Assembly (NCBI GenBank): GCA_012798435.1
Contig: JAAZNF010000080.1
Coordinates: 1-58,948 of the forward strand
DNA length: 58,948 nucleotides
DNA from: Myxococcales bacterium
GTDB taxonomy: Bacteria; Myxococcota; B64-G9
Direction: 5' to 3'
The position numbers and the translations under genes were made by a program. Below are positions 35,702 to 41,781 of this stretch, one piece after another. Below the pieces are notes generated by a model. That model was not told the DNA's origin. It searched no databases and saw only the letters and a program-made list of their open reading frames with translations. Numbering within the stretch: position 1 is the stretch's first letter; the number at the start of each line of letters is the position of its first letter.

Positions 35702-35840
35702 GGGGGCCTGAGTACCACGCCACGCGCGTGGCGGTCAATCCAATCGGTCCGGTTGTCGTATTGACCCGCTTCTCTGCCGCGTGCTAGTTTGCGCGCAGAA
35801 TCAAGCGGATAGGAATGGTCTTGGGATCTGGAGTCTGACC

Positions 35841-38800
35841 ATGAAGCCAAAATTCGCGGCGCGTTCGCTGTGGCGGGCGGCAGTGGGAATGCTGTTCTTC
35901 CTCGTGGCCACCTGCGGTGGAGACAGCCATACCGGAGTGTGGGTCCGCATTTTGACGGGAGATGACCTGGAGGGGAACCCCATCAAGGTCCGCTGGGTCC
36001 GGGTCCAGGTCTTCGAGCCGGGCAACGCCACCACGCCGGTGGCCTCGATCGATCGCGATCTCCCGCAGGACATGGCGTTGCCGGCGGGGGCCACCGATCC
36101 CAGCCTCCAGTTCTGGGTGCTGGTCCTGGCCAGCCGCGACATCGACGAGTCCGTGACGGTGGTGGCCCGCGGATACCGCAAGGGAGCGGCGGGGTGCGCC
36201 AATGATCCAGAAGTTGCCAGTGGGGTGCGCACCTACCAGTTCGAGAAGGGCAAGGTGGTCGACGACCTGATCGGCCTCACCATGACTCACCTCGGCACCG
36301 ATGCCGACAGCGATGGTTACTTCACCCCGGCCGATTGCGACGACAACGATGCCAACGTCAACCCTTGCGCTCGAGAAGTGTGCTTCGACAATCTGGACAA
36401 TGACTGCGACGAGGACGGCAGCGTGGACGAGGACTGTCCCTGCACCGCGGGCGAGAGCCGCGAGTGCTGGCCGCACTGGGCCGCCGAACCGCGCGGCGGA
36501 CCGTGCCAGAAGGGCACGCAGACGTGCAGCAATGGGAGCTGGGGCACCTGCGTCGGGGCCGTCCTCCCCAAGCCCGAGTTTTGCTACGACGGCGGATTCT
36601 CCTGCCTCGACGGAGCGGGACAGCCGTTGTGCCACAACGGTATCGACGACGACTGCGACGGCGTCACCGACGACCGCGACCCGGGTCAGCGGGGCGCCGT
36701 GGCGGGCCAGGACACCGGCTGCGGCGGCTGCTTCGACGGCGACGTGAAGACGTGCTGGACCGGGCCGCCGGACCGCCAGCGTCTCCCGTGCCGCGACGGG
36801 ATGAGCAACTGCGTGTCGGGCCGCTGGAGTTCCTGCGCCGGCCAAGTGCTGCCGCTCGGGTTCGAGACGTACACCGACCTGAACGGCAACGGCCAGTTCG
36901 ACGCGGGCGAGGACTTCCTCGACCTCGACGCCAACGGACAGCGGGACGCGGGGGAGCCCTCCACGGACGACAACCCGCCGAACGGCCAGCGCGACGAGAC
37001 TCCGAGCGAGTACGATCTGTGCGACTGCCTGGACAACGACTGCAACGGGGTGATCGACGACACCCAGCCGAAGTTTTGTAGCAACCAGATGGGCGTCTGC
37101 GCGGGAGCGTTGCAACGCTGCGACTCGCAGGCCTGCGTGTGGGTCGACTGCGCGACCGACGATTACCTGGCCAGCGCGAACAACACGCTGTGCCAGGGCG
37201 CCGCCCAGCCGGAGTGCTGCAGCCGCAACCCGCAGGACTGCTACCTCGCCGCCGCGCAGGAAACCGCCGCCTACTGCGACGACCTCGACAACAACTGCGA
37301 CGGCGCGCCGGACAACGCGGGATTCCTGCCGGACAACCGGCCCGTGTGCCAGTGCCCGAACGGGGCCGAGAAGACCTGCCCGGAGATCGCCAACCCCGAC
37401 GAGGGCGAGTGCGTGCGCGGGGTCTTCCGCTGCATCGACGGCAGCTACTTGGCGCAGCCCGGTTGCATCCAGCCAGAACCCAACGAGCGCTGCGACAACA
37501 AGGACAACGACTGCGACGGGCAGACCGACGGCTTCCTGGTCGCCGACTGTCCCATCCAGCCGTGGACCCTCTTCTCCGGCTGCACCGGGGGCGTGTGCAA
37601 CTACCTGTGCGTCGAGGACCACCACGACCTCAACCAGAACCGGAACGTCTCTGGCGGCAGCCCCGCCAACGACGGCTGCGAGTATCCCTGCCACATCACT
37701 TCGGCCACCGAGCGTTGCGACGGCCAGGACAACAACTGCGATGGCGCCACCGACGAGCGACAGGGAGAGATTACCCTGCTGTGCCCGCTCCCACCGCAGT
37801 CGCCGGAGCGCGTGGTGGTGACCGCCTGCACCGCCCCGGGCCGCTGCGACTACACCTGCCGCAATCCCTTCGCCGACTGCAACAACGATCTCAACCCGGT
37901 ACCGGGCATCGGCCAGACCGACAACCGCAACGGGTGCGAGAAGAACCTCTCCAACGATCCGCTGAACTGCGCGAGCTGCGGGCGCGTATGCGGCAGCCAC
38001 GGGCTGTGCGTGGGCGGCCAGTGCCAGTGCGAAACCGGCTGGGCCGACTGCAACGGCGATCTGGGCCAGGCCACCACCAACGGCTGCGAGACCCAGCTCG
38101 GGACGGTGAGCAACTGCCTGTCCTGCGGCGATTCCTGCGATGACAGCAACGAGTGCACCAACAACGAGTGCGACGCCATGTCGGGCTGCTACTTCCCCAA
38201 CAAGCCGGACGGGACCGCGTGCGGGACGGGCAACTGCACTGGCTGCACCAACGGGGTGTGCGGGCAGTACTCCGCCATGTGCCAGGGGAACTGCAGCCGC
38301 TGCAACGGCTCGGGGACCAACTATAGTTGTGTGGCCAACGACAGCAGCTGCACCGGCAACTGCGACGCGTGCAACGGCTCGGGCACGACCTTCAACTGCG
38401 CGGCGAACAGCGCCCTGTGCACGGGCAACTGCGACGTGTGCAACGGGTCCGGAACGTCCTTCAACTGCGCGGCGAGCGACGCGCTGTGCACCGGCAATTG
38501 CGACGTGTGCAGCGGTTCGGGGACGTCCTTCAACTGCGCGGCGAGCGACGCGCTGTGCACGGGCAACTGCGACGTGTGCAGCGGGTCCGGAACGTCCTTC
38601 AACTGCGCGGCGAACAACGCCGCCTGCACGGGCAACTGCGACGTGTGCTCCGGCTCGGGCACGACGTACAATTGCCAGGCCAATCCCGGCGACTGCGCCG
38701 GCAATTGTGTGCAATGCACGGGCTCCGGCACGGCGTTCAACTGCACGGCGAACAACACCGTCTGCTCCGGCAACTGCGACGTGTGTAACGGCTCGGGGAC

Positions 38801-40130
38801 GACGTTCAACTGCGCGGCGGACAACGCCCTGTGCACGGGCAACTGCGACGTTTGCAACGGGTCGGGGACGTCCTTCAACTGCGCGGCGAACGACTCGGCT
38901 TGCACGGGCAATTGCGACGTGTGCAACGGGTCCGGGACGTCGTTCAACTGCGCGGCGAACGACTCGGCCTGCACGGGCAACTGCGACGTGTGCAGCGGTT
39001 CGGGGACGTCCTTCAACTGCGCGGCGAGCGACGCGCTGTGTACGGGCAACTGCGACGTGTGCAGCGGGTCCGGAACGTCCTTCAACTGCGCGGCGAGCGA
39101 CACGCTGTGCACGGGCAACTGCGACACCTGTAGCGGCTCCGGTAATACTTTCAACTGCCAGGCTACCCCGAGCGACTGCTCGGGCAACTGCGTGCAGTGC
39201 ACCGGCTCGGGGACGGCGTACAATTGTTCGGCGAGATCCTCCGACTGCTCGGGCAACTGCGCCCAGTGCACCGGCTCGGGGACCACCTACAACTGTTCGG
39301 GGAATAGCAGCGCCTGCACGGGCAACTGCGACGTGTGCTCCGGCTCGGGGACGACCTGGAACTGCGCGGCCAATCCCGGCGACTGCTCGGGCAACTGCGT
39401 GCAGTGCACGGGTTCGGGGACGGCGTACAATTGTTCGGCGAGATCCTCCGACTGCTCGGGCAACTGCCCGCAGTGCACCGGCAGCGGGACCACCTACAAC
39501 TGCTCGGCGAACAACAGCGCCTGCACGGGCAACTGCGACGTGTGCTCCGGCTCGGGGACGACCTGGAACTGCGCGGCCAATCCCGGCGACTGCTCGGGCA
39601 ACTGCGTGCAGTGCACGGGTTCGGGGACGGCGTTCAACTGCGGGGCGAACAGCAGCGCCTGCAGCGGCGACTGCCCGCAGTGCAGCGGCTCGGGAACGAC
39701 GTACAACTGCGCGGCGAACAACAGCCTGTGCACGGCAGAGTGTGACGTGTGCTCCGGCTCGGGGACGACCTGGAACTGCACATTCGACAACGCTCAGTGT
39801 GACACGAACGAGACCTGCTACAGCGGCGTTTGCCACTGCGGAAGCTCCTCCGGGCCAAACTGCGCCGGCACCGCGGCGGATTTTTGCTGCCCACCGAGCT
39901 GCGTCGACACCACGAGCGACTCGGCCAACTGTGGGGGGTGCGGAGTGAGCTGCGCAACAAATCAAGCGGGCCATGCTTGCGTGAGCAGCAACTGCGGATG
40001 CCTCAATGCGAGCCACTGCGATGCCACCACCTATGGTTTGAAGTGCCGCAGCAACAACATCTGCGGTTGCGACAACGACGGCGACTGTTCTACCGGCACC
40101 TGCAACACTATCAACCACCGGTGCGTTTAG
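35841..40130 (+). CDS. Giant secreted Cys-rich protein with MopE-like motifs and 22 CxxCxGxG repeats
   Basis: The 1429-residue protein starts MKPKFAARSLWRAAVGMLFF and has a signal ending at VATCGG, so it is probably a lipoprotein. The first 780 residues carry six acidic Cys motifs of the Cu-binding MopE type (for example DNDCDEDGSVDEDC, RCDNKDNDCDGQTD, QDNNCDGATD), usually taken as metal-binding. Residues 814-1319 are 22 tandem 23-residue repeats (described separately) with four Cys each. The C-terminal 110 residues are again Cys rich (CGGCGVSC, NDGDCSTGTC). No catalytic domain is seen. Likely roles are structural or metal binding at the surface. Very long frames on the opposite strand and in another plus frame are by-products of composition. 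Confidence 0.92.
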   Translation: MKPKFAARSLWRAAVGMLFFLVATCGGDSHTGVWVRILTGDDLEGNPIKVRWVRVQVFEPGNATTPVASIDRDLPQDMALPAGATDPSLQFWVLVLASRDIDESVTVVARGYRKGAAGCANDPEVASGVRTYQFEKGKVVDDLIGLTMTHLGTDADSDGYFTPADCDDNDANVNPCAREVCFDNLDNDCDEDGSVDEDCPCTAGESRECWPHWAAEPRGGPCQKGTQTCSNGSWGTCVGAVLPKPEFCYDGGFSCLDGAGQPLCHNGIDDDCDGVTDDRDPGQRGAVAGQDTGCGGCFDGDVKTCWTGPPDRQRLPCRDGMSNCVSGRWSSCAGQVLPLGFETYTDLNGNGQFDAGEDFLDLDANGQRDAGEPSTDDNPPNGQRDETPSEYDLCDCLDNDCNGVIDDTQPKFCSNQMGVCAGALQRCDSQACVWVDCATDDYLASANNTLCQGAAQPECCSRNPQDCYLAAAQETAAYCDDLDNNCDGAPDNAGFLPDNRPVCQCPNGAEKTCPEIANPDEGECVRGVFRCIDGSYLAQPGCIQPEPNERCDNKDNDCDGQTDGFLVADCPIQPWTLFSGCTGGVCNYLCVEDHHDLNQNRNVSGGSPANDGCEYPCHITSATERCDGQDNNCDGATDERQGEITLLCPLPPQSPERVVVTACTAPGRCDYTCRNPFADCNNDLNPVPGIGQTDNRNGCEKNLSNDPLNCASCGRVCGSHGLCVGGQCQCETGWADCNGDLGQATTNGCETQLGTVSNCLSCGDSCDDSNECTNNECDAMSGCYFPNKPDGTACGTGNCTGCTNGVCGQYSAMCQGNCSRCNGSGTNYSCVANDSSCTGNCDACNGSGTTFNCAANSALCTGNCDVCNGSGTSFNCAASDALCTGNCDVCSGSGTSFNCAASDALCTGNCDVCSGSGTSFNCAANNAACTGNCDVCSGSGTTYNCQANPGDCAGNCVQCTGSGTAFNCTANNTVCSGNCDVCNGSGTTFNCAADNALCTGNCDVCNGSGTSFNCAANDSACTGNCDVCNGSGTSFNCAANDSACTGNCDVCSGSGTSFNCAASDALCTGNCDVCSGSGTSFNCAASDTLCTGNCDTCSGSGNTFNCQATPSDCSGNCVQCTGSGTAYNCSARSSDCSGNCAQCTGSGTTYNCSGNSSACTGNCDVCSGSGTTWNCAANPGDCSGNCVQCTGSGTAYNCSARSSDCSGNCPQCTGSGTTYNCSANNSACTGNCDVCSGSGTTWNCAANPGDCSGNCVQCTGSGTAFNCGANSSACSGDCPQCSGSGTTYNCAANNSLCTAECDVCSGSGTTWNCTFDNAQCDTNETCYSGVCHCGSSSGPNCAGTAADFCCPPSCVDTTSDSANCGGCGVSCATNQAGHACVSSNCGCLNASHCDATTYGLKCRSNNICGCDNDGDCSTGTCNTINHRCV
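38280..39797 (+). repeat. 22 tandem 69-bp repeats encoding CxxCxGxG modules
   Basis: The array encodes 22 units of exactly 23 residues, pattern C-x3-C-x2-C-x-G-S-G-x4-C-x6, typified by CTGNCDVCNGSGTSFNC. Every unit keeps CxxCxGSG, which is the zinc-binding motif of DnaJ (CxxCxGxG). Units 4-5 and 11-12 are almost identical in DNA, and the three-unit block 14-16 is repeated as 17-19, showing recent duplication. Confidence 0.95.
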
Positions 40131-40132
40131 GC

Positions 40133-40178
40133 GTGCGATAGCGAGTGGCCCAGCACACGCTATCACACTGATTTTATT
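40133..40178 (+). terminator. Possible terminator after the giant Cys-rich gene
   Basis: GTGCGATAGCG (40133-40143) and CGCTATCACAC (40158-40168) pair over 11 bp with one mismatch around a 14-nt loop, and TGATTTTATT follows. The stem starts 2 bp past the stop codon. Confidence 0.5.
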
Positions 40179-40400: not shown

Positions 40401-41675
40401 TCATTCGCCGGTTGTGGCCGCACCATCCTTGGCCCAGGCCGGGACACCCGGCGGCAGATCTGGCGAGATACGGCTAAAAATACTTTGGGGATCGCGCACC
40501 AGCACCGCTCCGTTCGGGACCTCGCGCCCGGCGTTCACCACCGCGTCGAGGCCCAGGTAGCTCCCGTGCCCGAAACAGGCGCCGAGGAAATTCGTCCCCG
40601 CCGACTTCGGCCCCTCTGGAGTCATCACCTGGATGTCACCGCGGAAGCGGGCGTCGATGACCATGCCTCCCGATGTCATGGCGCAGTCGCGGCCGAACAG
40701 GCAGGCCTGCACTCCGCGGATGGAGAGGTTCCCGCCGGGGTAACCAGCGCACAGCGTCATACTGGCGTTGCGACTCATGTGGCAGCCTTCGCCGATCACG
40801 GAGTATTGAAGGTTGACGCGATCCTCGATGACCGTGTCCGCGCCGATGATGCTTCCGCGAACCAGGGCGAAAGCCCCGATGCGCACGTTGTCGCCGACGC
40901 GGGCGAGCTCGAGGCGGGCGGTAGGGTGTATGTCGCAGCCGCGTCCGATGCGGTTGAAGCTGCCCATGGCCGCTTGACGAAAGCCTCTCTTGCTGAGGCG
41001 GCCCGAGAAGAGGCCCGCCAGGCCCGCGCGCAGGAGCCGAAGGCCGGTGAAGACCTTGTGATCCACGATGTCTTCCACCCACTGGATCTGGACACTGAGT
41101 TGGTTGGCCCACAGGATGTGGACCCAGTGACGAACGTGCATGACCACGCTGGAGGTGAGCGGGTGGCGGTAGGCACGGCTCCCCATGATGTGGCGCGGGT
41201 TGGGGACCTCGACCGCAATCTCCTTGAACTGCGCGCGCGCCGGCTGCGCCTTCTGCTGCGCTTCGGCCAGGGCCTCCTCCGAGCACGGCGGCTCGGGGCA
41301 GGACAGGAAGAAAAGCCGGTACAGGACGAGATCTGTGTCGCCCGCACGGCCCTCGTCGAGATCCTGCAAGGCCTGGGTGGAGCGCACCAGCAAAGAGTCC
41401 GCAGGCAGGCCCAGCCGCAGCGAGCGCCGCTCGGAACGAAAGCGCGTCGCCATCTCCGCCAGGGCTCGCCGGGTGAAGAACACGTCGTCGTAGGTGAGCA
41501 AGAACTCGTGCTCGTCGATCTCGTCCGGAGACCGGATGCGCTTTACCTGAAACCCCAGCCGCTCCAGCACCGCCGCCTGGTGATCCCGCAGCGTGCGGTT
41601 GCCGATCATGGAATCGGCGACCGGGTCGCCGAAGGGCGCGATGCGGTTCTGCCGTTCGATGATGTAGGCCTTCAT
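40401..41675 (-). CDS. Left-handed beta-helix (hexapeptide) protein with nucleotidyltransferase-like N-terminus
   Basis: The 424-residue protein starts MKAYIIERQNRIAPFG and continues GDPVADSMIGNRTLRDHQAAVLERLG, similar to sugar-nucleotidyltransferase-like openings but without the G-x-G-T-R-L loop, so catalysis of that type is doubtful. A helical middle part (about 130-220) follows. From residue 225 a hexapeptide-repeat beta helix is visible: IGRGCDIHPTARLELARVGDN, VRIGAFALVRGSIIGADTVI, then irregular coils with Cys residues. Such helices usually carry acyltransferases. The substrate is unknown. It is divergent from the glycosyltransferase-like gene, 106 bp away, perhaps both for surface polysaccharide. 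Confidence 0.75.
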   Translation of the reverse strand: MKAYIIERQNRIAPFGDPVADSMIGNRTLRDHQAAVLERLGFQVKRIRSPDEIDEHEFLLTYDDVFFTRRALAEMATRFRSERRSLRLGLPADSLLVRSTQALQDLDEGRAGDTDLVLYRLFFLSCPEPPCSEEALAEAQQKAQPARAQFKEIAVEVPNPRHIMGSRAYRHPLTSSVVMHVRHWVHILWANQLSVQIQWVEDIVDHKVFTGLRLLRAGLAGLFSGRLSKRGFRQAAMGSFNRIGRGCDIHPTARLELARVGDNVRIGAFALVRGSIIGADTVIEDRVNLQYSVIGEGCHMSRNASMTLCAGYPGGNLSIRGVQACLFGRDCAMTSGGMVIDARFRGDIQVMTPEGPKSAGTNFLGACFGHGSYLGLDAVVNAGREVPNGAVLVRDPQSIFSRISPDLPPGVPAWAKDGAATTGE

Positions 41676-41781
41676 GTCGGCGAGCCTAGAGGGAGGTGTG
41701 CATCCTGTCAACCGCGCCGAAGGGATCTACGGCTTCTGGGTGCTCTTGACTGAACGGCTTCGACATGGGAGAAGACGCGGC

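Follow-up and report, generated by a model that had tools for sequence, protein, structure and literature searches.

A strictly periodic 23-residue, four-cysteine repeat in a predicted lipoprotein of a Myxococcales bacterium, probably a disulfide-stabilized stalk

Introduction

Cysteine-rich stalk repeats as such are already known. In Myxococcus, the exported surface protein TraA (TIGR04201) carries cysteine-rich tandem repeats that its authors expected to be oxidized and proposed to form a rigid stalk (PMC3325183). In the animal eggshell-membrane protein CREMP, module a (C-X4-C-X5-C-X8-C-X6) recurs in tandem, and its disulfides have been shown experimentally (PMC3068167). Two further families share short motifs with the protein described here, namely DnaJ, a cytoplasmic chaperone with a central zinc domain (PF00684) that contains the CxxCxGxG stretch, and MopE, the namesake of the PF11617 motif, in which the copper ligands are His132, His203, and kynurenine-130, derived from Trp130 (PMC3423442).

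The locus analyzed here lies in a 58,948-nucleotide contig of a Myxococcales bacterium (the whole stretch is referred to below as the window) and encodes a protein with an array of 22 tandem units of 23 residues each. Like TraA, this appears to be an exported myxobacterial surface protein with cysteine-rich tandem repeats, but the TraA repeats follow a different cysteine pattern, with three invariant and two marginal cysteines, and the PA14-like domain and MYXO-CTERM of TraA were not found in the array protein in Pfam or NCBIfam searches. The search of the array against NCBIfam, which includes stalk repeats of the TIGR04201 type, gave no match at E-values up to 10. Compared by cysteine spacing, CREMP resembles the array in having tandem, highly conserved four-cysteine units with last two gaps of x8 and x6, whereas its first two gaps are X4 and X5, as opposed to x3 and x2 in the array. 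The 23-residue unit itself is present in neither Pfam nor NCBIfam, in agreement with the statement in a preceding sequence-only reading that the repeat was not of a type that could be named.

Results

Layout of the gene and the protein

The features of the locus, in window coordinates, are as follows.

35781..40130, + strand: reading frame; translation probably begins with the ATG at 35841, yielding 1429 amino acids
35841..35915, + strand: putative signal peptide and lipobox-like Cys25 (LVATC), from the translation and the orthologue N-termini
35841..38171, + strand: N-terminal region, residues 1-777, with six MopE-type motifs, from orthologue conservation and PF11617
36333..36431, + strand: full-length MopE-type motif (DxDxDG...DCDDND...), 30.8 bits
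37929..38171, + strand: copy of the repeat type of the orthologues' C-terminal arrays, residues 697-777, by blastp
38220..38279, + strand: short-form unit CGTGNCTGCTNGVCGQYSAM with a 4-residue Cys3-Cys4 loop, immediately 5' of the array
38280..39797, + strand: 22-unit array, 23 residues per unit, Cx3Cx2CxGSGx4Cx6, from motif spacing and Tandem Repeats Finder
39798..40130, + strand: C-terminal Cys-rich cap, 110 residues, with CGCxxxxxC-type modules at the end (by eye; several orthologues alike)
40401..41711, - strand: convergent hexapeptide (left-handed beta-helix) transferase-like gene, a neighbor kept in 5 of the 8 orthologue regions

Searches of Pfam, NCBIfam, and the PDB with the whole protein yielded nothing besides PF11617. 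The cap shows weak similarity to NF041328 (MXAN_6577-like Cys-rich protein; E-value 0.014), as does the tail of an orthologue (0.0029), both matches falling far under the curated cut-off of 100 bits. The earlier description of the protein as exported, Cys-rich, and plausibly rod-like is supported. As to export, a hydrophobic N-terminal segment is followed by a cysteine that aligns, by eye, with the lipobox-like cysteine of the orthologues; the lipobox of the window protein is imperfect, with Thr at position -1. A 1460-aa open frame runs antisense to the entire gene (35784-40166, - strand) and is probably a by-product of GC-rich codons.

The 23-residue array is exact and under selection

The periodicity described from the sequence, with 22 exactly spaced units and 88 cysteines, was recovered both by motif counting and by Tandem Repeats Finder (score 1112 for 20.8 copies of a 69-bp period, far above chance). 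All 21 spacings between the 22 CxxCxGSG motifs equal exactly 23 residues, and each of the 22 units retains Cys at positions 1, 5, 8, and 17 as well as G10-S11-G12; the remainder of the protein contains another 97 cysteines. Six residues (Cys, Ser, Gly, Asn, Thr, Ala) make up most of each unit; charged or large side chains are scarce, and His is absent. At the DNA level, adjacent units share 76% identity on average, and the invariant residues are encoded variably, with TCG, TCC, and AGC for the Ser of GSG and 79 TGC and 9 TGT codons for Cys. Together with a mean dN/dS of about 0.42 between units, these synonymous differences indicate that the conservation is selected rather than a result of recent copying alone. 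Chance and an assembly artefact are both rejected as the origin of the array: its units have diverged from one another and show selection, and the unit recurs in other genomes. The number 22 may nevertheless be slightly off if the assembly is based on short reads, given that the longest exact repeat spans 119 bp.

The N-terminal region and its MopE-type motifs

The six MopE-like motifs noted previously correspond to six PF11617 stretches (E-value 1.2e-10; 41.9 bits, above the curated cut-off of 27 bits); apart from the full-length copy, the motifs match chiefly the second half of the model. The MopE structure (2vov) aligns weakly with the window protein (E-value 0.52), in the motif region only (residues 154-193). 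The PF11617-type motif produces 127 matches in this genome, and the Pfam motif is not the copper site of MopE; the presence of the motif says little about copper. Dense arrays of the motif also occur in single frames elsewhere in the genome (for example, C4:1741-3066, C95:19-1200, and C113:86547-90713), one such array being located in a 2604-aa frame.

Orthologues carry other cysteine-rich repeats at the same place

An N-terminal orthologue was detected in 7 of the 8 other genomes of the family, one of which encodes two, so that eight regions were read. The orthologues are 31-37% identical to the window protein over about 670-830 residues; by eye, the Cys after the hydrophobic N-terminal segment is in the same place across them, and several finish in a similar CGCxxxxxC module. 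Where the convergent transferase-like neighbor is kept, its product is 50-55% identical. Past residue ~770, the orthologue tails are Cys-rich (14-21%), with the strongest periods mostly at 51-57 aa and one at 64. The tails in L072, L074, L075, L076, L077, and L078 are Cys-rich arrays located at the place of the 23-residue array, and those examined have no Pfam repeat model. In blastp, the tail repeats of L072, L073, and L075 have a counterpart at residues 697-777 of the window protein, so the 23-residue array adjoins a remnant of the repeat that is usual in the family. The best explanation is that several types of Cys-rich repeat are interchangeable at this place in the family, and that the array is one of them.

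A repeat type that differs strongly among related genomes, with the rest of the protein kept, could also be expected of a recognition surface, in which the repeats would bind a partner (other cells, a polysaccharide, or prey) and a swap between species would alter specificity. TraA, a myxobacterial Cys-rich surface protein, is indeed involved in recognition, although the proposed receptor is the separate PA14-like domain (PMC3325183). The make-up of the units, poor in charged or large side chains, is that of a spacer, and in one relative (L031) the units adjoin a separate enzyme-like domain; we consider a recognition role of the repeats unlikely.

Related units have variable loops

The 23-residue unit is present in 5 of the 195 genomes of the phylum, including that of the window, and in one of the five only as short-form units. 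In the relatives, the skeleton C-x3-C-x2-C-loop-C-x(~6) recurs in tandem, with a Cys3-Cys4 loop of 4-8 residues. The loop has eight residues in 34 distinct units, of which 15 have CxGxG (9 have GSG) and 19 lack it; this count was made with a pattern that requires the cysteines and accordingly says nothing on their conservation. Another 19 units have shorter loops. In the reverse count, starting from the motif, the fourth Cys accompanies 16 of the 17 CxxCxGxG occurrences in the relatives, and both flanking cysteines accompany 13 of the 17. Short forms are located 5' of long forms also in L029, L030, L066, L067, and L069. Given the variable loops, the units that lack CxGxG, and the short form that precedes the array, GSGTxFN may be read as a lengthened loop in a small module of the disulfide type.

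The surroundings of the units in these proteins fit a spacer, since the units lie near a lipobox-like N-terminus, ahead of separate regions. In L031 they follow a lipobox-like N-terminus and are themselves followed by a pectate-lyase-like beta-helix; in L029 and L069 they precede what by eye are propeller-like repeats (without a Pfam match in L029), and in L071 a unit precedes a region that, by eye, is beta-helix-like.

Several other frames came up in these comparisons. In L031:5551-7887, a PelN-like pectate-lyase beta-helix is tied to a lipoprotein-like N-terminus by Cys units of the array type. In L068:527-6000, from a genome of the same family, two adjacent Cys-rich frames contain short-form units and one CRGSGTEFHC unit. 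L018:2422-3531 (+ strand) encodes a tandem Cys-rich array of the QCVDxSQCSGSQxCVNDACVxTGCxSDQxC type in a frame that looks exported. A tblastn search of plasmids gave no match.

The resemblance to DnaJ appears superficial

The sequence-only reading took the repeats for DnaJ-like units, and an exported protein might in principle have acquired a true DnaJ-derived zinc-finger array. The likeness is close over eight residues, CDVCxGSG in the array as compared to CDVCHGSG in Escherichia coli DnaJ (1exk), but it covers only 8 of the 23 residues of the unit, and the profile, alignment, and structure database comparisons all speak against the claim. PF00684 (DnaJ_CXXCXGXG) gave no match to the whole protein, and with four units alone it reached 12.5 bits (E-value 0.19), an insignificant score given the curated cut-off of 32.7 bits. 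Aligned by hhalign with the zinc domain of the genome's own DnaJ, which is ordinary, the unit profile obtained a probability of 2.8% over 14 columns, and the best DnaJ match in the PDB had an E-value of 6.9 over 11 residues. Furthermore, each unit has two additional invariant cysteines, the 23-residue spacing is fixed, and the related arrays include short loops without CxGxG. As judged from these comparisons, the resemblance to the DnaJ zinc motif is likely superficial, spanning 8-11 residues, and descent from DnaJ is extremely improbable.

Disulfides or metal

Enzymes of the VKOR and DsbA types form disulfides outside the cytoplasm. The genome encodes two fusions of VKOR with Thioredoxin_4 (DsbA-type), each in a single frame (G000:C48:11344-12456 and G000:C10:594-1670; L080, L081, L084, L085), which are likely the disulfide-forming enzymes of this organism. 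The spacer-like placement of the units, these fusions, and the precedents of TraA and CREMP jointly favor a disulfide-stabilized stalk, an argument that rests on context. AlphaFold models were uninformative (pLDDT 43 for five units and 50 for three units and relatives); a weak repeated hairpin with GSG at the turn, seen in these low-pLDDT models, is a hint only.

Several observations run counter to a stalk. The imperfect lipobox is one, and the invariance of GSG despite synonymous changes, which exceeds the needs of a plain spacer, is another. In addition, the four Cys of a unit would equally suit one tetrahedral zinc site, so a metal-thiolate array, in which each unit would bind one Zn(II) or Cu(I) and the protein would act as a surface store or buffer for up to 22 ions, has to be weighed. 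The four invariant cysteines, the short DnaJ-like CxxCxGSG stretch that is maintained under synonymous change, and the MopE-type motifs in the same protein are compatible with such an array. However, the protein would be exported into an oxidizing setting with VKOR-DsbA enzymes, the unit has no His, loop length and CxGxG differ among the relatives, the Cys arrays that replace it in the orthologues are of quite another kind, DnaJ homology was not detected, and the MopE copper site is formed by two His and a kynurenine, not by the Pfam motif (PMC3423442). Because four cysteines per unit could hold a metal, a small share of probability remains with this reading, which we regard as unlikely; its specific form, in which the protein would be a polymer tethered to the surface, with one ion held by the four Cys of each unit and with 22 metal-thiolate sites in all that arose independently of DnaJ, appears quite improbable.

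Discussion

The array is probably a disulfide-stabilized spacer or stalk in an outer-membrane lipoprotein that is itself probably surface-exposed; we infer the disulfides and their pairing, the lipidation, the surface exposure, the rod shape, and the spacer role. Under this scenario, the protein would be exported by the Sec pathway, lipidated at Cys25, and oxidized by the VKOR-DsbA enzymes. Each 23-residue unit would be a minimal four-cysteine module, in which Cys1, Cys5, Cys8, and Cys17 form two disulfides, paired either within one unit or between neighbors, and the segment from Cys3 to Cys4 would fold into a short hairpin that turns at GSG. The 22 units would then build an extended, protease-resistant rod linking the conserved N-terminal region with its MopE-type motifs to the C-terminal cap.

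For the annotation of exported Cys-rich proteins, the lesson is that CxxCxGxG need not indicate zinc binding of the DnaJ type. If the fold is confirmed, the perfectly periodic 23-residue, four-cysteine unit could serve as a compact building block for disulfide rods. The difference in repeat type within one orthologous surface protein is noteworthy in its own right: with the N-terminal region kept and the repeat module differing, this family provides a clean natural comparison for the evolution of disulfide-repeat stalks.
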